Assembly (NCBI GenBank): GCA_016283985.1
Contig: JAEENZ010000106.1
Coordinates: 1 to 11,406, forward strand
Direction of reading: 5' to 3'
Length of the DNA stretch: 11,406 bases
DNA from: Bacteroidales bacterium
GTDB lineage: Bacteria > Bacteroidota > Bacteroidia > Bacteroidales > UBA932
Position numbers and translations under genes: made by a program
The notes under the pieces: generated by a model
What the model was told of the DNA's origin: nothing
The model's input: only the letters and a program-made list of their open reading frames with translations
Databases searched by the model: none
Shown: piece by piece, positions 3,263-11,406 of the stretch
Numbering within the stretch: position 1 is the stretch's first letter
How the letters are laid out: each line of letters starts with the position of its first letter

Positions 3263-4322
3263 ACACATCATTACAATCCTGTCCGTCCTGGTTATTAGCC
3301 TCGTCGGTTGCAAGTCCCAGTCCGATAATTGCACCGTGAAAGGCTCCATCCAAGGTGTCAAGGAAGGAGCCGAACTTGAATTGCAGGATGCTTGGAACAG
3401 TTTTAAGGTTGTCGCCACGGCCAGTGTCAATAATGGGACCTTCGAGTTTCATCCAAGATTCAAGTCTCGCACCCACGTGTACCTGTATGCCAAGGATCCA
3501 AATGATGTATATGCCAATCCTTTGGACGGGGGCCAATTGAAGGATTTCTTCCTGGAACCCGGCACCATTAATGTCGATGTCCACGCCAATGATGAGGCTG
3601 ATATGTACACGGGTGCGACAGGAACGGTCCTGAATGACGCCTACCACAAAATCCAGACTGCGGATGACGACGCCAAAGAAGTTCTTTGGGAAGAAGCAAT
3701 CAGGGATGAACGGACGAGTCTCCTGGCCATAGAATATGCCGATAATGAATCCGGCGATCTCAGCAAAGCATCGGAGATACTGAACAGTTTGTCCCCGGGC
3801 CAGGCCAAGGACTATAAGAAATATATCGCCACTATGAAAAAAAGGTGGGCACGCCGGGCGAAAGCGGAAGAACGCAGGAAAATCGCTGCCGAAAAAGGTA
3901 TGAATCTCCTTCATCAGCAATACATCGATATGGAGTATACGGATGTGGATAACAATCGTGTCAGCCTGAGTTCAATAGTTGCCAATCCGGCAAACCACTA
4001 TGTTATCCTGGATTTCTGGGCGACCTGGTGCGGCCCCTGTGTGCAATCAATTCCCACGCTGAAGGATGTGTATGACCGTTATCACGACAGGGGACTGGAG
4101 ATATACAGCGTTTCCCTGGATTTCAAAACCAAGGAGTGGAAAACCTTCGTTGCTGAGAATGGGATGACTTGGGTCAATGTTCTGGGCAAAGACCGCAAGG
4201 CTGTAGAGGATTATGGAGTCGAGTCCATTCCGACCATATACCTGATTGATTGCAAGACCGGGGAAATCCTTGTCCGCGACGCACACCCGGACCTCGACTC
4301 AATTCTGTCAAACCTCCTTTAA
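3252..4322 (+). CDS. TlpA-like thioredoxin-fold lipoprotein with DUF4369-like N-terminus
   Basis: This is a periplasm-facing thiol-disulfide oxidoreductase. A lipoprotein signal ends at Cys20 (SLVGC). Residues about 26-115 (TVKGSIQGVKEGAELELQD ... FFLEPGTINVDV) match the DUF4369-type N-terminal beta domain of Bacteroidota TlpA proteins. A charged helical stretch (about 190-215, KKRWARRAKAEERRKIAAEKG) links it to the thioredoxin domain, about 225-356. The active site is WCGPC with Cys260 and Cys263, preceded by VILDFWAT; the cis-proline is in ESIPTIYLID. All key residues are present, so it should be redox active; substrates may include envelope proteins exported by the same operon. The length (356) is normal for the family. 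The gene starts inside the upstream gene's end, and its stop overlaps the convergent regulator gene by 15 bp (4308-4322). Confidence 0.92.
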   Translation: MKNKHIITILSVLVISLVGCKSQSDNCTVKGSIQGVKEGAELELQDAWNSFKVVATASVNNGTFEFHPRFKSRTHVYLYAKDPNDVYANPLDGGQLKDFFLEPGTINVDVHANDEADMYTGATGTVLNDAYHKIQTADDDAKEVLWEEAIRDERTSLLAIEYADNESGDLSKASEILNSLSPGQAKDYKKYIATMKKRWARRAKAEERRKIAAEKGMNLLHQQYIDMEYTDVDNNRVSLSSIVANPANHYVILDFWATWCGPCVQSIPTLKDVYDRYHDRGLEIYSVSLDFKTKEWKTFVAENGMTWVNVLGKDRKAVEDYGVESIPTIYLIDCKTGEILVRDAHPDLDSILSNLL

Positions 4323-5237
4323 CAGTTTTGCTTTAAGCCGCTGGCGTGCCTTGGTAACAGAGGCAGGGGAGATCCCCAGCAGGATGGCTTGCTCAGATAC
4401 TGAGAATTGCAGGTGCGAGAGGATATAGGTGCGTATATCACCTTTCGTGAGGTCTGGGTGCGTTTCCCGGAGAGATTCTGGCGCAAGGCCGCCTGAATTC
4501 CGGAGCATCCGTTCCAATTCGGTCCACTCTTCATCCAGAATATAGCGGGGCTTTGCGCGAAGCTGCTGTAGCAGATGATTCTGTCCGACGAGCGCATGCA
4601 TCAGCACATAAGAATCAACTTCACCGGCAGGACCTCCGCCTGCCTTCGGGACGAATCCCTCCCGCTCGTCGTTTCCGGCGCGGATTACCATCAGGAAAGC
4701 CCTGACATTTTTGCCGAGGATTTCGCTCACCTGCGGGATAGTTAAAGCACTTCTGCCGCCAATGCAGGTTGACGCAAGGCCAAGAGCCACCAGAATGAGT
4801 TGATAATAAAGCGTTTCGGCTTCGTCCCCCTGCAGACCGAAGGTTTCTGTTATGGCAGAAAGGCACTCTGGTTTGAAGCCAACGTAGGAATCAATGTAAT
4901 CCTTGTAAGAAGCAGGTTGCGTCTGCGATTCCATAATCATGGAGAATAGATACGGCTCGTCCATAGCGAACCAGATAAAGGCCACGCCAAAGCCTTTGAA
5001 AGGAGGATTGAGCGCAAAGCCGTCACCAACCCGCTTCCGGTACAGTTTCCGGGCTTCATCCCGGACAGCATCCCGGACACCTTGAATGGATCCGTAAGAA
5101 GAGAAGATAGCATTGGCACCGCAGCCCAATGACGCACACAGGTTGCGGGCTGTAAGTGACGAAAGACCTCCCGCGCGCACCAAATCAAGGGCTGCGGAAA
5201 GGATTCTTTCTTTTGTGACAGTAATCGGTCTTGCCAT
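4308..5237 (-). CDS. TetR-type regulator with an added C-terminal HTH
   Basis: A 309-residue DNA-binding protein, longer than a usual TetR (about 190-220). Residues 1-60 carry a TetR N-terminal HTH (ITVTKERILSAALDLV ... LTARNLCASLG ... IFSSYGSIQGVRDAV). Residues about 75-190 look like a TetR ligand/dimer domain of the WHG type (AFIWFAMDEPYLFSMIME). A Gly-rich linker (about 198-206) leads to residues about 238-307, which resemble the C-terminal DNA-binding module of Bacteroidota regulators: WTELERMLRNSGG, then HPDLTKGDIRTYIL, then FSVSEQAILLGISPASVTKARQRLKAKLL, a second HTH. The start ATG 5237 is 26 nt after a -7 box on this strand. It is divergent from the beta-barrel gene at 5402 and the natural regulator of that promoter, where TGTCCA repeats lie. 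The inducer is unknown. It could be an activator or repressor. Confidence 0.85.
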   Translation of the reverse strand: MARPITVTKERILSAALDLVRAGGLSSLTARNLCASLGCGANAIFSSYGSIQGVRDAVRDEARKLYRKRVGDGFALNPPFKGFGVAFIWFAMDEPYLFSMIMESQTQPASYKDYIDSYVGFKPECLSAITETFGLQGDEAETLYYQLILVALGLASTCIGGRSALTIPQVSEILGKNVRAFLMVIRAGNDEREGFVPKAGGGPAGEVDSYVLMHALVGQNHLLQQLRAKPRYILDEEWTELERMLRNSGGLAPESLRETHPDLTKGDIRTYILSHLQFSVSEQAILLGISPASVTKARQRLKAKLLKEV

Positions 5238-5330: not shown

Positions 5331-5398
5331 TTGTCCATATTGATTTTTATTTCGGAACGCTGGATACGCTAACTTTGCATCCGAAAAAATATGGACAA
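5331..5398. promoter_or_regulatory. Exact 11-bp inverted repeat TTGTCCATATT flanking the beta-barrel promoter (candidate operator)
   Basis: TTGTCCATATT is at 5331-5341 on the plus strand and its exact reverse complement AATATGGACAA is at 5388-5398. The left arm lies just upstream of the -33 region; the right arm covers the leader just before ATG 5402. The left arm is 12 bp from half-site 2 (5320-5325), about one helical turn. A dimeric regulator, most simply the divergent TetR-type protein, could bind both arms and loop the promoter. This assignment is inference. Confidence 0.5.
5346..5377 (+). promoter_or_regulatory. Promoter of the beta-barrel gene: -33 TTTA and -7 TAACTTTG
   Basis: TAACTTTG at 5370-5377 matches TAnnTTTG, with TTTA at 5346-5349 as a possible -33 element 20 bp upstream. 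ATG 5402 follows 24 nt after the box. A TTG at 5375 that would extend the reading frame lies inside the -7 box and so cannot be the translation start. Confidence 0.6.
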
Positions 5399-5401
5399 AC
5401 G

Positions 5402-7792
5402 ATGAAACGACTGATTGTATTGTTAATGCTCGCAGTAGTTGCGATTCCCGCTCTGGCCAAGGGTGACTGGAAGGGAAAGATTGTGGATGAGAAAGGCGAG
5501 CCTGTGGCTTACGCCAATGTGGCCGTGCTTTCCAAGACCGATTCCACTGTCGTGTGCGGCGTGGTGACTCAGGAGGACGGTACCTTCAATATAGTGACTA
5601 AAGAGACGGACGGCATAATGATGGTTGCTATGCTGGGCTACAGGACTGTGTATCTGGCGCCTGTCGACGGTGCTGTAATCACTTTGTCCGGCGATACGCA
5701 AATGCTGGAGGGGGCCGTAGCGAGCGCCGTCATGCCCAAAACAAAACTCACGGGGGAGGGTCTGCAAACCAACGTACGGGGTTCTGTATTGGAGAATGCG
5801 GGATCTGCCAACGACGTGCTGGAAAAGACGCCCGGTCTTATCAAGGGCCAGAACGGCTTGGAGGTGATTGGCAAAGGCTCGCCGGTGGTCTATATCAACG
5901 GGCGTCGTGTGAGCGATCCTACTGAGTTGGACCGCCTGCAAAGCAATGAGATCCAGAGTGTAGAGGTAATCACCAATCCCGGGGCCCAATACGATGCCAC
6001 GGTGCGGGCAGTGGTGCGCATTCGCACCATCCGGCGCCAGGGAGACGGTTTCGGCTTCAACCTGAACGCTTCGGATGCCCAGTCACTGCGATGGACCAAG
6101 GGCAACGACCCCTTTGGCGCCATCAATGTGAACTACCGCACGGGAGGCCTGGACTTTTTCGGCGGGGTCAACTATGCCCGCAACACTTCCCGTCAGGAGA
6201 GTTACCTGGAGAAGCAAACCTTCGGAAGGACCGCCACTGGGGACGACTGGCTCTTCGAGAACAAGGGGACGCTCCTGAACGAATACATCGGCAGTTCCAT
6301 CTATGGCAATGCCGGCGTGAACTGGCAGATGGCCGACAACCACTTCCTTGGCGGTAAAGTGGAATGGGGCCGACACCTGACATATAGCGTGCATACGGAG
6401 GTGAATGACAACGTGTTCGAGAACGGGGCGCTGGTCGATCGCCTCACCACGTTGTCGGATGACACGATGGGAGAGTGGACGCCGTACAACCTTGGCGCCA
6501 ACCTCTATTACAACGGCCTCGTTGCGGGCAAGCTGGGCATCGACATCAATCTGGACTATTACGGGACGGACGACAGTTCCAAATCAGTCTCTATGGAGAC
6601 GAGCGATATGACCCACAATGCCGCCATCCAGAGCGGCAGCACCAATGCCGGGCGTATGTATGCCGCCAAGGCGGTGCTTTCCTATCCTATCTGGAAGGGC
6701 CAGCTACAGGCGGGGACTGAGGAAACCTTCTCCCGCCGGAAGGATAATTATTCGGTGGAGGGGATCGACATCCCGGCATCGGAAGCCACGGTGAGGGAAG
6801 ATAATATCGCCGGATTCGCTTCTTACGGTTGCTACTTGCCGGAGATCGGGCAGTTCAGCGCAGGTGTACGTTACGAGTGGGTGCATTATGCCTACGAGGA
6901 TGCTGTGACGCCCGAAAACGACCTGGCCCGCGACTACGGCAACTGGTTCCCCAATGTATCCTACGCCGGTGTCATCGGCGCCCAGTCGCAGAATCCTGTC
7001 CAGGTGATGATGAATTACAGCGCCAAGACGCGCCGGCCCAATTACGCCAACCTTTCCAGCGCCATACGCTACAACAGCCGCTATATCTGGCAAAGCGGAA
7101 ACGCTGGCCTGCAGCCGGAACTGTCCCACAATCTGAGCCTTACGGCGGTGTGGAAATGGCTGACCTTCATGGTCAACTACGCCCGCACGGACAATGCCAT
7201 CATGACCTGGTCCTCGCCCTATGGGGACGAAGGCGTAGTGCTAGTGAAGCCCCGGAACATAGAGACGCCATACCGGATGATGTCGGCCTTTGTGAATCTG
7301 ACGCCCACGGTGGGTCCCTGGACCCTGAATTACACCGTCGGCATCCAGCCTCAATGGCTTACGATTAACGCTCCTGACCCGCGCGAGGCTTCCGGCATCC
7401 GCGTAACGTCCTTCAACGGCAAGCCCATCTACTTCGCACAGTTGCTGAACACCTTGACGGTAGAGGGCGGATGGCAGTTCGAGCTGGGCGGTATGGTGCA
7501 GTCCACGGGCTACACGCAGAACCTGTATCTGAAGAATGCCTATGTGGACATCACAGCCGCCATCCAGAAAACTCTCCTTGCCGATGGCTCCCTGGTGCTG
7601 CGCCTGGAGGGTGCTGACTTGGCTGGCTTGGCCCACTACGACGTGGACTCAGACTTCGGCAGCCACACCATTATGCAGACAAACATGATGGACACGCAGA
7701 AAGTTAAACTCTCTATCCGTTACAGCTTCAACACCGCTCAAAGCAAGTACCGCGGCACCGGCGCCGGGGCCGACAGCAAAGCCAGAATGTAA
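5402..7792 (+). CDS. Outer-membrane beta-barrel protein with carboxypeptidase-like domain and plug (TonB-dependent-receptor-like)
   Basis: This 796-residue protein has a signal peptide (MKRLIVLLMLAVVAIPALA), then a carboxypeptidase-D-regulatory-like sandwich at about 22-100 (WKGKIVDEKGEPVAYANVAVL ... QEDGTFNI), a plug domain at about 110-215 (ANDVLEKTPGLIKGQNGLEVIGKG, VVYINGRRV, SVEVITNPGAQYDA) and a long barrel of alternating aromatic beta strands to the C-terminus. The ending with SKYRGTGAGADSKARM is typical of the 'outer membrane beta-barrel protein family' (OMP_b-brl_3) of Bacteroidota. The role is presumably transport or surface binding of an unknown ligand; no SusD-like lipoprotein follows it, unlike polysaccharide-utilisation pairs. 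ATG 5402 is preferred over the upstream TTG 5375 because of the promoter position. A tiny 4-codon ORF (5391-5405) overlaps the start. Regulation by the divergent two-HTH protein is likely. Confidence 0.9.
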   Translation: MKRLIVLLMLAVVAIPALAKGDWKGKIVDEKGEPVAYANVAVLSKTDSTVVCGVVTQEDGTFNIVTKETDGIMMVAMLGYRTVYLAPVDGAVITLSGDTQMLEGAVASAVMPKTKLTGEGLQTNVRGSVLENAGSANDVLEKTPGLIKGQNGLEVIGKGSPVVYINGRRVSDPTELDRLQSNEIQSVEVITNPGAQYDATVRAVVRIRTIRRQGDGFGFNLNASDAQSLRWTKGNDPFGAINVNYRTGGLDFFGGVNYARNTSRQESYLEKQTFGRTATGDDWLFENKGTLLNEYIGSSIYGNAGVNWQMADNHFLGGKVEWGRHLTYSVHTEVNDNVFENGALVDRLTTLSDDTMGEWTPYNLGANLYYNGLVAGKLGIDINLDYYGTDDSSKSVSMETSDMTHNAAIQSGSTNAGRMYAAKAVLSYPIWKGQLQAGTEETFSRRKDNYSVEGIDIPASEATVREDNIAGFASYGCYLPEIGQFSAGVRYEWVHYAYEDAVTPENDLARDYGNWFPNVSYAGVIGAQSQNPVQVMMNYSAKTRRPNYANLSSAIRYNSRYIWQSGNAGLQPELSHNLSLTAVWKWLTFMVNYARTDNAIMTWSSPYGDEGVVLVKPRNIETPYRMMSAFVNLTPTVGPWTLNYTVGIQPQWLTINAPDPREASGIRVTSFNGKPIYFAQLLNTLTVEGGWQFELGGMVQSTGYTQNLYLKNAYVDITAAIQKTLLADGSLVLRLEGADLAGLAHYDVDSDFGSHTIMQTNMMDTQKVKLSIRYSFNTAQSKYRGTGAGADSKARM

Positions 7793-7834: not shown

Positions 7835-8560
7835 ATGGAGCAGATGTTTTGTCAGAGCTGCGGAATGCCGCTCACTCAGGAAATCTTAGGCACCAATGCC
7901 GATGGAAGCAAGAATGAAGATTACTGCATCTATTGCTATAAGGACGGGAAGTTCCTGCAGGATTGCACTATGGAAGAAATGATTGAGCACTGCGCCCAGT
8001 TTGTGGACGAGATGAACAAAGGCCTGCCGCAGCCCGTCACGAAGGAAGAATACATCGGCCAGATGAAGATGTATTTTCCACATCTGAAACGTTGGCGCAA
8101 AGAGCTGACACTTACGGATTCCATGCCGGAGAATCCCGCTCTGGCCGGAGTGAAGGAACTCATCGGCCAAATGGCCGATACACTGCCCATTTCCTTCATT
8201 TCATCAGTGGATGCGGAGGGCTATCCCTGCACAAAGGCGATGCTGGCACCGCGCGTCCGTGAGGGCATTAAAGTGTTCTATTTCACCACCAATACATTCT
8301 CCCTGCGAGTAGCCCATTACAAGGCGAATCCTAAGGCAAGCATTTATTTCTGCGACGCTGAGGGCTTCAAGGGGATGATGCTGCGCGGCACGATGGAGGT
8401 GCTTACGGATGCCGCCTCAAAGGAGATGATCTGGCGCGACGGCGACACTGAATACTATCCCGGCGGCGTCACCGACCCCAACTACTGCGTCCTCAAATTC
8501 ACTGCTACCGACGGCCGCTTCTACAGCGATTACTATCCTCGCAGTTTTGTGATAGAGTGA
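7835..8560 (+). CDS. Zinc-ribbon plus pyridoxamine 5'-phosphate oxidase-fold protein
   Basis: A 241-residue soluble protein with no signal peptide. Residues 6-34 hold a zinc ribbon with two CxxC knuckles (CQSC at 6-9, CIYC at 31-34), in the form FCQSCGMPL ... DYCIYC seen in the 'putative zinc ribbon' family. Residues about 45-100 are a helical segment (MEEMIEHCAQFVDEMNKG). Residues about 105-240 resemble the PPOX/general-stress-protein-26 split barrel: LPISFISSVDAEGYPCTKAML, then VFYFTTNTFSLRVAHYKANPKASIYFCD and MLRGTMEVLTD. Such barrels bind FMN, F420 or heme; the ligand and reaction here are not determined. It has its own promoter and is followed by a hairpin, so it appears monocistronic. 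ATG 7844 is an alternative start. Confidence 0.88.
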   Translation: MEQMFCQSCGMPLTQEILGTNADGSKNEDYCIYCYKDGKFLQDCTMEEMIEHCAQFVDEMNKGLPQPVTKEEYIGQMKMYFPHLKRWRKELTLTDSMPENPALAGVKELIGQMADTLPISFISSVDAEGYPCTKAMLAPRVREGIKVFYFTTNTFSLRVAHYKANPKASIYFCDAEGFKGMMLRGTMEVLTDAASKEMIWRDGDTEYYPGGVTDPNYCVLKFTATDGRFYSDYYPRSFVIE

Positions 8561-8630: not shown

Positions 8631-8696
8631 CGAAGTGACAGGGTAGCCGTACTTGGTGTCGTGATTTTGGGGCAGACAAATCGCAATAAATGGGGA

Positions 8697-8727
8697 TTTA
8701 CCGCTAGAAGTATGCTCCGTAACTTTG
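8697..8727 (+). promoter_or_regulatory. Promoter of the ECF/methyltransferase operon: -33 TTTA and -7 TAACTTTG
   Basis: TAACTTTG (8720-8727) matches TAnnTTTG, with TTTA at 8697-8700 spaced 19 bp upstream. ATG 8751 follows 23 nt after the box. The same -7 octamer serves the beta-barrel gene. It is likely the main promoter of the genes from 8751 to the right edge. Confidence 0.6.
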
Positions 8728-8750: not shown

Positions 8751-9317
8751 ATGAAACCTGCATTCAAAATCATCCTGCTGGCTGTCGCATACCTTCTTAC
8801 ATTCATTCTGGGCGCTACATCCGGCATTATCCACCCGGCATGTTATGCCTATGTCGGGGCCATCCTGCCCCTGCTGACCGCGTTCGTCTATCTTCTGACC
8901 TGCACGACAATCCGGGGCTTCGGTGCGGCGACGGTCCTGAACGGATTCGTGCTTGTCGTCTTCTTGATCGCGGGCGAGGCTGATGTTCCATACATTATCG
9001 CCACTGTTGTACTGACAGCGCTCGCCGAGATGATCCGGTACTTCTGCAAATACGACACGCTGAAGGGCGTCCGATGGAGTTTCATCCCGTTTGCCTTCTC
9101 CTTCTTCGCTTACACGTCCCACTGGTGGTTCGACACGGAAGGTTCACTGGCAGCTGCCGTAGAGGAGATGCCGGCCGGATATGACCAGCTGATGATACCG
9201 GTCATCGACAACATCCCCGTGCTGGTGGTCGTGCTGGTCCTGACCATCCCCGTGGCCATCCTCGCCATGAGGCTTGCTGAACGTTCGCTGAAGAAACAAA
9301 CCGAAGGATTGAAATGA
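8751..9317 (+). CDS. ECF transporter S component, MptD/Trep_Strep-like (copy 1)
   Basis: A 188-residue integral membrane protein with about six hydrophobic segments (roughly 5-22, 33-51, 57-75, 79-97, 108-124, 150-175) and a basic C-terminal tail (MRLAERSLKKQTEGLK). Size, topology and the order of motifs resemble the Trep_Strep/MptD family of putative substrate-binding S components of energy-coupling-factor transporters: ILPLLTAFVYLLT, a central GFGAATVLNG segment, LAEMIRYFCKYDTLKG, and the final stretch ending in a basic helix. S components bind a vitamin-like small molecule and need EcfT and EcfA ATPases, which are absent here. The stop overlaps the start of the methyltransferase gene by 4 nt (ATGA at 9314-9317), so translation is coupled. 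A paralogue lies at 10767-11333; a hand alignment gives about 31 differences in 188 residues. Substrate unknown. Confidence 0.75.
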   Translation: MKPAFKIILLAVAYLLTFILGATSGIIHPACYAYVGAILPLLTAFVYLLTCTTIRGFGAATVLNGFVLVVFLIAGEADVPYIIATVVLTALAEMIRYFCKYDTLKGVRWSFIPFAFSFFAYTSHWWFDTEGSLAAAVEEMPAGYDQLMIPVIDNIPVLVVVLVLTIPVAILAMRLAERSLKKQTEGLK

Positions 9318-10078
9318 AACCGAATTACAAGAACTGGATGCCCAAAGGCATGATTTGGAGCTTTGCGGCGGGGACTGCCGTGAGTCTGGCGCTGACGCTG
9401 ATTGTAGGCATAAGCTGGCTGAAGATCCTCCTGCTCATCCTTACTATGGTCCTGACCGGGGTGACCGTATGGACGATACTGATGTACCGTGCCTTCTCCT
9501 ATGACGGGAAGCGTCAGATGTCCCGCCATATCATCGAAGGTGTGGCAGAGTATGTAAAACTGCCGGATGGTGGCCGATGCCTGGACGTTGGGTGTGGCAG
9601 CGGAGCTTTGGCCAACGCCGTGGCCAAGCGGAACCCGCAGGGCACGGTGACGGGCATCGACCGATGGGGTGCCGAGTACGCCTCCTTCAGCAAGAGACTC
9701 TGCGAGGACAATGCCAGGGCGGAAGGCGTGGCTGAGAGAACAGATTTCACGCAGGGGGATGCCTTGAAACTGGACTTCCCGGACGGTTCCTTCGACGCGG
9801 TCACCTCCAACTACGTCTATCACAACATCCCCAGCCGTGACCGTCAGGCAATCCTGCTTGAGACCCTACGCGTGCTGAAAAAGGGAGGTACCTTCGCCAT
9901 CCACGATATCTTCTCGAAGGAGAAATACGGTGATATGAAAGCCTTCGTGAAGAAACTCAAGGACTTAGGCTATGAACATGTCGAACTAATCCCCACCGAC
10001 GACGGCCGGTTCATGTCTCCCAGAGAGGCCAGGTGGATGGCACTCGGCGGATCGGCCATTCTCTTCGGAAAGAAATAA
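9314..10078 (+). CDS. Membrane-anchored class I SAM-dependent methyltransferase (copy 1)
   Basis: A 254-residue protein with two N-terminal hydrophobic segments (about 13-32 and 35-57) followed by a class I Rossmann methyltransferase on the cytoplasmic side. Visible motifs: motif I LDVGCGSGAL (90-99), acidic residue after strand 2 in TGIDRW (Asp116), QGDALKLDFPDGSFDAV (147-163), the motif IV region SNYVYHNIPS (165-174) and a final strand LKKGGTFAIHDIF (188-200). The catalytic core therefore looks intact. The acceptor (small molecule, lipid or protein) cannot be told from sequence. The start is coupled to the S component by an ATGA overlap, and a paralogous start occurs at 11330 after the second S component, so a physical pairing at the membrane is plausible. 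The stop is 43 nt before the hydrolase-like gene. Confidence 0.88.
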   Translation: MKPNYKNWMPKGMIWSFAAGTAVSLALTLIVGISWLKILLLILTMVLTGVTVWTILMYRAFSYDGKRQMSRHIIEGVAEYVKLPDGGRCLDVGCGSGALANAVAKRNPQGTVTGIDRWGAEYASFSKRLCEDNARAEGVAERTDFTQGDALKLDFPDGSFDAVTSNYVYHNIPSRDRQAILLETLRVLKKGGTFAIHDIFSKEKYGDMKAFVKKLKDLGYEHVELIPTDDGRFMSPREARWMALGGSAILFGKK

Positions 10079-10106
10079 TCATAACCCGGTTGCAAGGGAT
10101 TACCCG

Positions 10107-10114
10107 TAGCTTTG
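10107..10114 (+). promoter_or_regulatory. Possible -7 box close to the hydrolase-like gene
   Basis: TAGCTTTG fits TAnnTTTG but lies only 7 nt before ATG 10122, against 23-26 nt for the other promoters here, and no -33 element sits at 19-20 bp. Either it is fortuitous, or it drives a nearly leaderless mRNA, or translation starts at a later Met. Confidence 0.25.
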
Positions 10115-10121
10115 CGGCAGC

Positions 10122-10754
10122 ATGAAGAAAGAATACCAACCTCTGAACATGATCATGAACGGCCGCTACGCCGTTCTGTATGGGAAACTTGCCCCGGCCA
10201 TCCAGAAGGAAGTCCTTTCCAGGATGGCCGGACTCATTGAGGAAGAGAGGGATTACGAGGACAAGGGCAACTACGGCCACTTCTGCAACATCCTTCCAAC
10301 CATTGCCATCGACGACGTGCTTCAGCGTAACGGGAAGTCGCCGGAGGAAGCCTTCAAACTCATCTCCACACACATGTGGGCGGCACTGAATCCGGAGGGG
10401 TTCCAGAAACTCTCAAAGCTACCGTTCTTCCTCTCGGTGATGCGGAAGATCATCCCGCTGGGCTTCAAGTACGGCTCGGGCAAGGGCTGGAAGTACGTCT
10501 GGCATCCGGAGGACCCCAAGGAGTACTATCACTTCGAGACGCTGGAGTGCCTGTACAAATACGAATTCTCCAAGCACGGTGTGCTGGATCGCTTCGGCTC
10601 CATGTTCTGCCACAGCGACATCATCAATTACGGCAACCTTCATAACATCGATTTCATCCGTACGAAGACCCTCTGCCAGGGCGGCGACTGCTGCGATTTC
10701 CGCTTCGTGAGGCACCGCAGGGGAGAGGTTTGGGAACGTACCAAAAGTATTTAA
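10122..10754 (+). CDS. L-2-amino-thiazoline-4-carboxylate hydrolase-like protein
   Basis: A 210-residue soluble protein with no signal peptide or membrane segment. The C-terminal pattern FCHSDI (about 162-167), then RTKTLCQGGDCCDFRFVRH (about 180-198) is the signature I associate with the L-2-amino-thiazoline-4-carboxylic acid hydrolase family (ATC_hydrolase, Pfam PF14196). The founding enzyme opens a thiazoline ring on the route to L-cysteine, but most members of this family are uncharacterised, so activity here is inference. Candidate functional residues are Cys185, Cys190, Cys191, Asp192 and His164. The length is normal for the family. The gene sits between two copies of an S component/methyltransferase pair and is followed after 12 nt by the second S component, so it likely belongs to the same operon. 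Met10 or Met12 (10149, 10155) are less likely starts. Confidence 0.78.
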   Translation: MKKEYQPLNMIMNGRYAVLYGKLAPAIQKEVLSRMAGLIEEERDYEDKGNYGHFCNILPTIAIDDVLQRNGKSPEEAFKLISTHMWAALNPEGFQKLSKLPFFLSVMRKIIPLGFKYGSGKGWKYVWHPEDPKEYYHFETLECLYKYEFSKHGVLDRFGSMFCHSDIINYGNLHNIDFIRTKTLCQGGDCCDFRFVRHRRGEVWERTKSI

Positions 10755-10766
10755 TCATCATTGAAT

Positions 10767-11333
10767 ATGAAACCTGCATTTAAGATTCTTCTTCTGGCTG
10801 TTGCCTACCTTCTCACCTACATTCTGGGCTCGTGTACCGGCCTCATTCACCCGGCGTGCTACGCGTATGTCGGAGCGATCCTGCCCCTGTTGACCGCGTT
10901 CATCTATCTCTTGACCTGCGCGACGGTCCGAGGCTTCGGTGCGGCGACTCTCCTGAATGGATTCGTTTTCATCATGTTATTGATCGCGGGCGAGGCGGAC
11001 ACGGCGCTTGCCATAGGCTTCGCCATCCTGACGGCATTGGCCGAAATCATCCGTTACCTCTGCAAGTATGATACGCTGAAGGGCGTCCGCTGGAGCTTCC
11101 TTCCCTTTGCATTCTCCTTCTTTGCCTACACAGCCCACTGGTGGTTCGACACGGAAGGCTCGTTGGCCGCGGCTGTCGAGGAAATGCGCGCAGGCTACGA
11201 CCAGCTGATGATCCCGGTCATCAATAACATCCCCGTGCTCATCGTCGTACTGGTCCTGACCGTCCCCGTGGCCATCCTGGCCATGCGCCTTGCGGAACGG
11301 TCGCTGACGAAACAGACGGAGGGATTGAAATGA
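10767..11333 (+). CDS. ECF transporter S component, MptD/Trep_Strep-like (copy 2)
   Basis: A 188-residue paralogue of the protein at 8751-9317, with the same six-segment layout, HPACYAYVGAILPLLTAF core and the same basic tail. About 157 of 188 residues are identical in a hand alignment. Sixteen of the roughly 31 differences fall in two patches, residues 22-26 and 68-87, while the C-terminal half is nearly invariant. Synonymous codons differ often (for example 11 differing bases in the first 63), so the duplication is not recent. ATG 10767 was chosen because it aligns with ATG 8751; an in-frame TTG at 10761 would add only two residues. The 3' end again overlaps the methyltransferase start (ATGA at 11330-11333). 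It is 12 nt after the hydrolase-like stop. Confidence 0.75.
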   Translation: MKPAFKILLLAVAYLLTYILGSCTGLIHPACYAYVGAILPLLTAFIYLLTCATVRGFGAATLLNGFVFIMLLIAGEADTALAIGFAILTALAEIIRYLCKYDTLKGVRWSFLPFAFSFFAYTAHWWFDTEGSLAAAVEEMRAGYDQLMIPVINNIPVLIVVLVLTVPVAILAMRLAERSLTKQTEGLK

Positions 11334-11406
11334 AACCCGACTACAGGAACTGGATGCCGAAAGGCATGATAGGAAGTTTCGCGGCAGGGACTGCCGTGGC
11401 GCTGGT
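11330..11406 (+). CDS. Membrane-anchored SAM methyltransferase (copy 2), cut by right edge
   Basis: Only the first 25 codons are present. They read MKPDYRNWMPKGMIGSFAAG and on into the first membrane segment, matching the start of the copy-1 methyltransferase (9314) at all but four positions (N4D, K6R, W15G, S24A). The ATG overlaps the stop of the second S component by 4 nt, exactly as in copy 1. Whether the catalytic domain is complete cannot be seen. The repeated architecture makes a full-length paralogue likely. Confidence 0.8.
   Translation, partial: MKPDYRNWMPKGMIGSFAAGTAVAL

Follow-up and report, generated by a model that had tools for sequence, protein, structure and literature searches.

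The closest described systems to the locus considered here are known from studies of bacterial iron import. LhaSTA of Staphylococcus lugdunensis is an iron-regulated heme transporter of the energy-coupling factor (ECF) type (PMC7299338), and in the equibactin locus eqbHIJ was described as a ferric-siderophore-like ATP-binding cassette (ABC) importer needed for iron import, the YbtPQ-like eqbKL being dispensable for the iron phenotype (PMC3672683). MptD is mentioned in the available excerpts of neither of two papers on equibactin-like loci with ECF-type genes (PMC12709192, PMC6814731), and for Porphyromonas, which has been studied more closely within this phylum, PgFur was reported not to bind the Escherichia coli Fur box (PMC6613475). 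The stretch analysed here (the window) comprises 11,406 nucleotides from a Bacteroidales bacterium (contig JAEENZ010000106.1 of assembly GCA_016283985.1). At its right end the gene calls give, all on the plus strand, a gene of a PF09605 membrane protein (S1), a gene of a membrane methyltransferase (MT1), a gene of the PF14196 'ATC hydrolase' family, a second PF09605 gene (S2) and the start of a second methyltransferase gene (MT2); S and MT hereafter also denote the homologues in relatives. With moderate confidence, we favour the explanation that this module, induced when iron is limiting, captures an iron chelate and methylates it as part of the iron-limitation response of rumen-type Bacteroidales.

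The key feature, overlooked in the preliminary description of this DNA, is an operator that was traced from a conserved block upstream of S1 (Table 1). With a matrix of 57 S-upstream sites taken from other loci only, it scored 29.0, the next best position in the window reaching -1.3. The iterated matrix, which draws on the site in the window itself as well as on sites of further genes from the 80 loci, gave 27.6, against 6.5 for the next best position and a maximum of 21.9 in 200 mononucleotide shuffles. Altogether, 140 sites above a score of 14 were found in 1.21 Mb, compared with a mean of 7.3 (maximum 15) for ten permuted matrices. The -7 boxes were assigned by the Bacteroidetes-type consensus, and the spacing of 21 nt between the operator core and this box recurs at 40 of 58 S-linked sites and at 21 of 76 other sites. 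At the level of sequence, S1 is thus shown to start at a dyad operator with a fixed promoter spacing.

The relatives used for comparison were the best 80 of 107 places in a scan of genome contigs (L001–L080) and all contain S by construction; their record titles read Bacteroidales, Bacteroidaceae, Prevotellaceae, Bacteroidia or Bacteroidetes, and many of them come from ruminants. When sites scoring at least 18 within 160 nt upstream were counted by gene class, they were found before 56/80 S genes, 8/19 ZIP genes, 8/25 class I methyltransferase genes, 2/9 ArsP_1-HMA permease genes and 1/4 PF14196 genes, before none of 12 zinc-ribbon genes and 9 PEMT enzyme genes, and before 44/979 other genes.

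The assignment to iron draws on the ferrous-iron transporter FeoAB. FeoA was found in all 25 genomes searched (loci L210–L234), and the operator stands upstream of FeoAB in 21 of them, in 13 cases with the spacing of 21 nt, while random windows of the same loci contained it in 24 cases out of 500. The FeoAB loci were not part of the matrix training, and this test began from the FeoA genes, not from the site. Using the S-only matrix, the operator was found before FeoAB in 19/25 genomes (random windows, 23/500), including 14 of the 20 genomes where none had been met beforehand; the other five FeoA-positive genomes (G003, G011, G023, G327 and G361) had already been met in site-led scans. Pattern scans allowing up to two mismatches gave matches in 5/5 and 23/23 whole genomes. 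The latter had 208 strand-wise matches, in which a palindrome counts once per strand, whereas the reversed pattern gave 10. The genes downstream of these matches include those encoding FeoAB, TonB-type receptors, an HMA protein, an outer membrane barrel and a Fur-family protein (PF01475, 29.9 bits at a cut-off of 23.1), and in some relatives the operator also precedes metal permeases and methyltransferases; some matches have no plausible downstream gene. The Fur-family gene is present in 20/25 genomes and carries the operator at 6/20 orthologue loci (one known beforehand), compared with 8/400 windows.

Hence, what was found is an operator common to iron-uptake genes at a conserved promoter spacing, as in a Fur-type regulon. 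Since S1 and FeoAB have this operator in common, the S1 module is probably iron-regulated, and a control site that also stands before the iron transporter of near relatives suggests a role in iron scavenging in preference to vitamin uptake. Among the possible signals iron has the best support, a zinc or mixed response being a further option. In rumen-type Bacteroidales the dyad may act more generally as an iron box, with a wider use than S-MT, so that a concrete candidate iron operator can now be proposed for these bacteria; our literature search found no description of this Bacteroidales iron box, which is not proof of its absence. As a separate observation, one locus (L196, G011:C15) has sites before the gene of a hemerythrin/LuxR-type protein and, divergently, before that of a CbiX-type chelatase, an arrangement reminiscent of heme-iron handling.

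The favoured explanation may be presented as follows. When iron is scarce, a Fur-family repressor would leave the operator, and S1 and MT1 would be made in a translationally coupled manner. In the inner membrane, S1 would capture an iron chelate resembling a siderophore or a tetrapyrrole, and inward delivery would occur together with, or alongside, a YbtPQ-like ABC heterodimer such as that encoded next to S in several relatives. The membrane-held methyltransferase could then methylate the ligand or its carrier, leading to trapping or to metal release. The PF14196 protein, made from its own promoter, may bind or sense the compound or the metal, and S2-MT2 might supply a second ligand specificity. 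In this scheme the substrate, the transport partner, the methylation target and the Fur-family protein as the binder are all inferred.

A number of facts weigh against this explanation. Sites scoring at least 18 are absent within 160 nt upstream of 24/80 S genes; there is no site before S2 or before the PF14196 gene of the window, nor directly before any of 14 ABC half-transporter genes. No site above 14 was found at 14/20 Fur-family loci, and 5/25 genomes gave no hit to the regulator. An ABC half-transporter is among the examined neighbours of S in only 9/80 loci, and none is encoded within the window. MT is absent from 66/80 S genomes, so that S must act there without it. Moreover, the loci of relatives are related and are not independent samples, which bears on all the counts. 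Finally, ZIP genes and a CDF efflux gene also lie downstream of the dyad, so another metal regulator may act on it.

The last point leads to zinc or general divalent-metal homeostasis, with an operator of Zur or mixed type and an S-MT pair handling a zincophore or a metal response. Besides the ZIP and ArsP_1-HMA permease genes counted above, the site is followed in L032 by a Cation_efflux (CDF) gene and in G003 by the gene of an HMA protein, but the most consistent target other than S is FeoAB, and we consider this explanation unlikely.

Much as the preliminary description proposed, S could instead take up a vitamin or another nutrient, either alone or driven by an ECF motor; methylation would trap the compound metabolically, and the PF14196 protein would open its ring. 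We regard this as doubtful to the point of being improbable. The names speak for it, as the nearest NCBIfam family is called a putative ECF S component and PF14196 is named after a thiazoline-ring hydrolase. However, EcfT (PF02361) was found in none of 24 S-carrying relatives, whose genomes are drafts with no completeness stated, while the same search was positive in 10 of 14 control genomes, which makes an ordinary ECF motor unlikely and speaks against an ordinary ECF transporter; the iron-type operator and the similarity of the PF14196 model to sensor-type folds also disagree with nutrient uptake. If our explanation is correct, a 'putative ECF' membrane family of rumen-type Bacteroidales would move, in genomes where EcfT was not found, into the iron-starvation response. 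A role of S as a sensor, that is, an S-component-fold receptor having MT and the H-NOX/V4R-like protein as signalling partners, is very improbable: the failure to find EcfT among the 24 relatives, the modelled fold of the neighbouring PF14196 protein and a paper that ties the S-component fold to receptors, in whose text a search for the family of S gave nothing (PMC11109136), would agree with it, but Pfam found neither a kinase nor any further signalling domain in the module genes, and importer-type ABC half-transporters adjoin S in several relatives.

Returning to iron-chelate capture, a possible transport partner is indicated by the locus L003. Its order is the operator, a TetR gene, two ABC genes, S, MT and a PF14196 gene, followed by genes of a TetR-like regulator, an outer membrane barrel and a zinc-ribbon/PNPOx protein; the part from the operator to MT runs in one direction, and the last three genes are homologues of the window genes upstream of S1, differently arranged. 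Among the bacterial half-transporters listed from PDB, the best for one of the two ABC proteins is 6p6i chain A (320 bits), the partner chain of YbtQ, namely YbtP; the next is IrtA (293 bits). For the other ABC protein it is YbtQ (279 bits). Eukaryotic full transporters, some with two matched stretches, outscore the bacterial halves for these proteins. It is tempting to suppose, although very tentatively, a motor-swapped importer, in which a YbtPQ-like ABC heterodimer replaces EcfT/EcfA beside the PF09605 S protein, and a co-translated membrane-tethered MT modifies the incoming iron chelate, all under the Bacteroidales iron box. If S really teams with an ABC importer of siderophore type and exporter fold, and also with a methyltransferase, this would be a new way of building an importer.

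Table 1. Features of the window, with positions and the basis of each assignment.
Feature	Position	Strand	Basis or remark
26-bp dyad operator AAATCnCCATTAATGGnGATTT	8676-8701		Matrix score; iron (Fur-type) box by inference
Operator core AATCGCAATAAATGGGGATT	8679-8698		Dyad
S1 -7 box TAACTTTG	8720-8727	+	Exactly 21 nt after operator core
S1, PF09605 (Trep_Strep) membrane protein, 188 aa	8751-9317	+	Pfam 93.1 bits, cut-off 28.7
MT1, class I S-adenosylmethionine methyltransferase, 254 aa, two N-terminal hydrophobic segments	9314-10078	+	Pfam and hydrophobicity
Short inverted repeat AACCCGGTT, possible operator	10083-10091		Upstream of PF14196 gene; at this place in only three loci
PF14196-gene -7 box TAGCTTTG	10107-10114	+	15 nt before start codon
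PF14196 'ATC hydrolase' family protein, 210 aa	10122-10754	+	Pfam 54.7 bits, cut-off 28.1
S2, PF09605 protein, 188 aa, S lineage other than that of S1	10767-11333	+	Pfam 89.1 bits, cut-off 28.7; tree
MT2, start of second membrane methyltransferase, 25 residues to contig end	11330-11406	+	Similarity to MT1
TetR-like regulator	4308-5237	-	Weak TetR_N match below cut-off; homologues near S in L001, L003, L011
Outer membrane beta-barrel PF14905, TonB-receptor-like	5375-7792	+	Pfam; homologue near S-MT in L003
Zinc-ribbon + PNPOx-like protein	7835-8560	+	Pfam; long homologue near S in L001, L002, L003, L011, L012, L022

The preliminary description had noted an S-methyltransferase pair with an ATGA overlap occurring twice in the same orientation. 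This is indeed present in the sequence: both junctions, S1/MT1 and S2/MT2, are 4-nt ATGA overlaps, the second pair being visible only in part, with 21 of the 25 visible MT2 residues identical to MT1. The membrane tethering proposed for the methyltransferase also agrees with our data, as MT1 is a class I enzyme whose two N-terminal hydrophobic segments peak at residues 13–31 and 29–47. As to an identity of MT1 as a UbiE/MenG quinone methyltransferase, it was rejected, the best NCBIfam equivalog giving 63.2 bits at a cut-off of 216.

In relatives, MT (E-value of 1e-40 or better) was found in 14/80 S genomes, 11 belonging to the first 40 and 3 to the remaining 40, and in 13 of these 14 it lies within the S locus itself; in one MT-positive genome (G334) it has an internal stop. 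The same 4-nt overlap is shared by S and MT in L003 and L004. Among 299 genomes of the family to which the L003 genome belongs, S is present in 11, MT in 5 and both in 3 (hypergeometric P = 3.6e-4 with the centre genome, which had been selected because it contains both, and 0.006 without it); 2 of the 5 MTs are only 43% identical and come from genomes without S. It may be concluded that S-MT is a recurring pair, well supported by this comparison of gene neighbourhoods. Recurrence does not extend to the full order S-MT-PF14196-S-MT, which was found in none of the 80 loci. As to co-occurrence of PF14196 with S, the first 40 S genomes were searched for a relative of the PF14196 gene; 5 have one, and 4 of these 5 carry it at the S locus (L003, L012, L025 and L030).

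Other METHYLTRANSFERASES beside S include a soluble 208-aa class I enzyme, an LCM-family enzyme and PEMT-type membrane enzymes. According to Pfam, class I methyltransferases account for 14/141 and 5/136 genes at one or two places from S (19/277 together), while among 150 genes sampled from the 517 lying at least five places away no methyltransferase family with at least two members was found (P = 0.0017 assuming one). Because 12 of the near-S cases are MT itself, the remaining 7–8 being other class I enzymes, an attraction of S to methyltransferases other than MT is only suggestive; the enrichment obtained from seed profiles is biased, as the seeds were taken from S neighbours. In addition, a 132-aa membrane protein without a Pfam match (L043:7773-8171 and homologues) is encoded near S in ten loci.

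Both S1 and S2 belong to PF09605 in Pfam, so that their earlier assignment to ECF S components is upheld at this level, but they fall below the cut-off of the NCBIfam MptD family TIGR02185 (46.3 and 46.7 bits, respectively, against 76.45). No PDB sequence match for S was found at an E-value of 1, and an AlphaFold2 model of S from 14 close sequences had a mean confidence (pLDDT) of 48.6, too poor for a fold check. Literature on PF09605/Trep_Strep and on MptD yielded nothing usable on the function of S.

The module had been called duplicated. The two S-MT units are in fact alike (79% identical over 640 nt), and S1 and S2 share 157 of 188 residues (84%), the third codon positions of the S genes being only 58.5% alike. 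However, when 92 S proteins were placed in one tree, S1 formed a pair with P0125 (96% identity) and S2 fell within a separate clade of 16 rows (support 99/97). S2 shows 93% identity to S both in L011 and in L001, a match from another species. Simple tandem duplication was therefore rejected on the split of S1 and S2 in the tree, and two S lineages placed side by side are indicated instead of local copies. Behind its PF14196 gene, L012 has a 40-nt stretch with 90% similarity to the S2 leader of the window, and directly 3' of this stretch come 26 nt with 96% similarity to the MT2 start; this single locus suggests that L012 once had the order PF14196-S-MT and then lost S. As a rule, PF09605 genes are single (19/22 genomes); three genomes have two, side by side in two of these. 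Two further variants of S were observed. In L067 (10001-11161) and L069 (969-2129) tandem PF09605 genes lie 12 nt apart, the second strongly diverged, which is another type of S pair, and a 215-aa homologue (P0169) has a 27-residue internal insertion repeating its own neighbouring segment.

For the PF14196 protein, a ring-opening hydrolase had been predicted. Its model resembles H-NOX/V4R/Bet3 folds in fold searches, for which reason thiazoline ring opening is unsupported, although such searches do not by themselves decide this activity; four cysteines are invariant in 35 aligned relatives. A similarity of PF14196 to HNOB and V4R has also been published (PMC5847659). PDB gave no sequence match for this protein at an E-value of 1, and literature under the name of ATC hydrolase gave nothing usable. 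The proposed co-transcription of all five genes is partly supported, but the PF14196 gene has its own -7 box, which recurs at -15 in L003 and L012 and has no exact match in L025 and L030. The inverted repeat before this promoter has counterparts in L003 (GCAACCCGGTTGC, 11331-11343) and L012 (GCGACCTAGTCGC, 10570-10582), between which both arms show matching changes, and it is possibly a site for the TetR-like regulator.

Some other possibilities were considered for the window as a whole. Carriage by a plasmid was rejected, since neither a near-DNA search nor tblastn with the S, MT and PF14196 proteins gave a match in a plasmid collection. Sigma-70 promoters and terminators were likewise discarded (4 promoter-like sequences against 2.3 in shuffles and 2 terminator-like ones against 2.9). 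At the opposite end, an open reading frame on the minus strand (3-1199) carries the stretch HCIEGKDRTG, presumably resembling the tyrosine-phosphatase signature; NCBIfam gave no match for its part 3-1049.

Summarizing the comparison with known systems, the PF14196 model shares its predicted fold with the H-NOX/V4R/Bet3 superfamily, including MopR, PoxR and TRAPP Bet3. Literature on a rumen xenosiderophore link yielded nothing usable. Like the equibactin locus, the present system would combine iron regulation with YbtPQ-like half-transporters beside another small-molecule importer; a difference is that eqbHIJ is described as a ferric-siderophore-like ABC importer. The best bacterial matches of the L003 ABC pair relate it to the siderophore importers YbtPQ and IrtAB, to which an S protein and a methyltransferase are added here, the ABC pair itself lying outside the window. 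With LhaSTA, the module would share an S component acting under iron limitation for iron acquisition, but the Lha system includes T and A genes of its own, whereas here EcfT was found in none of the 24 relatives, S being paired with a membrane methyltransferase instead.

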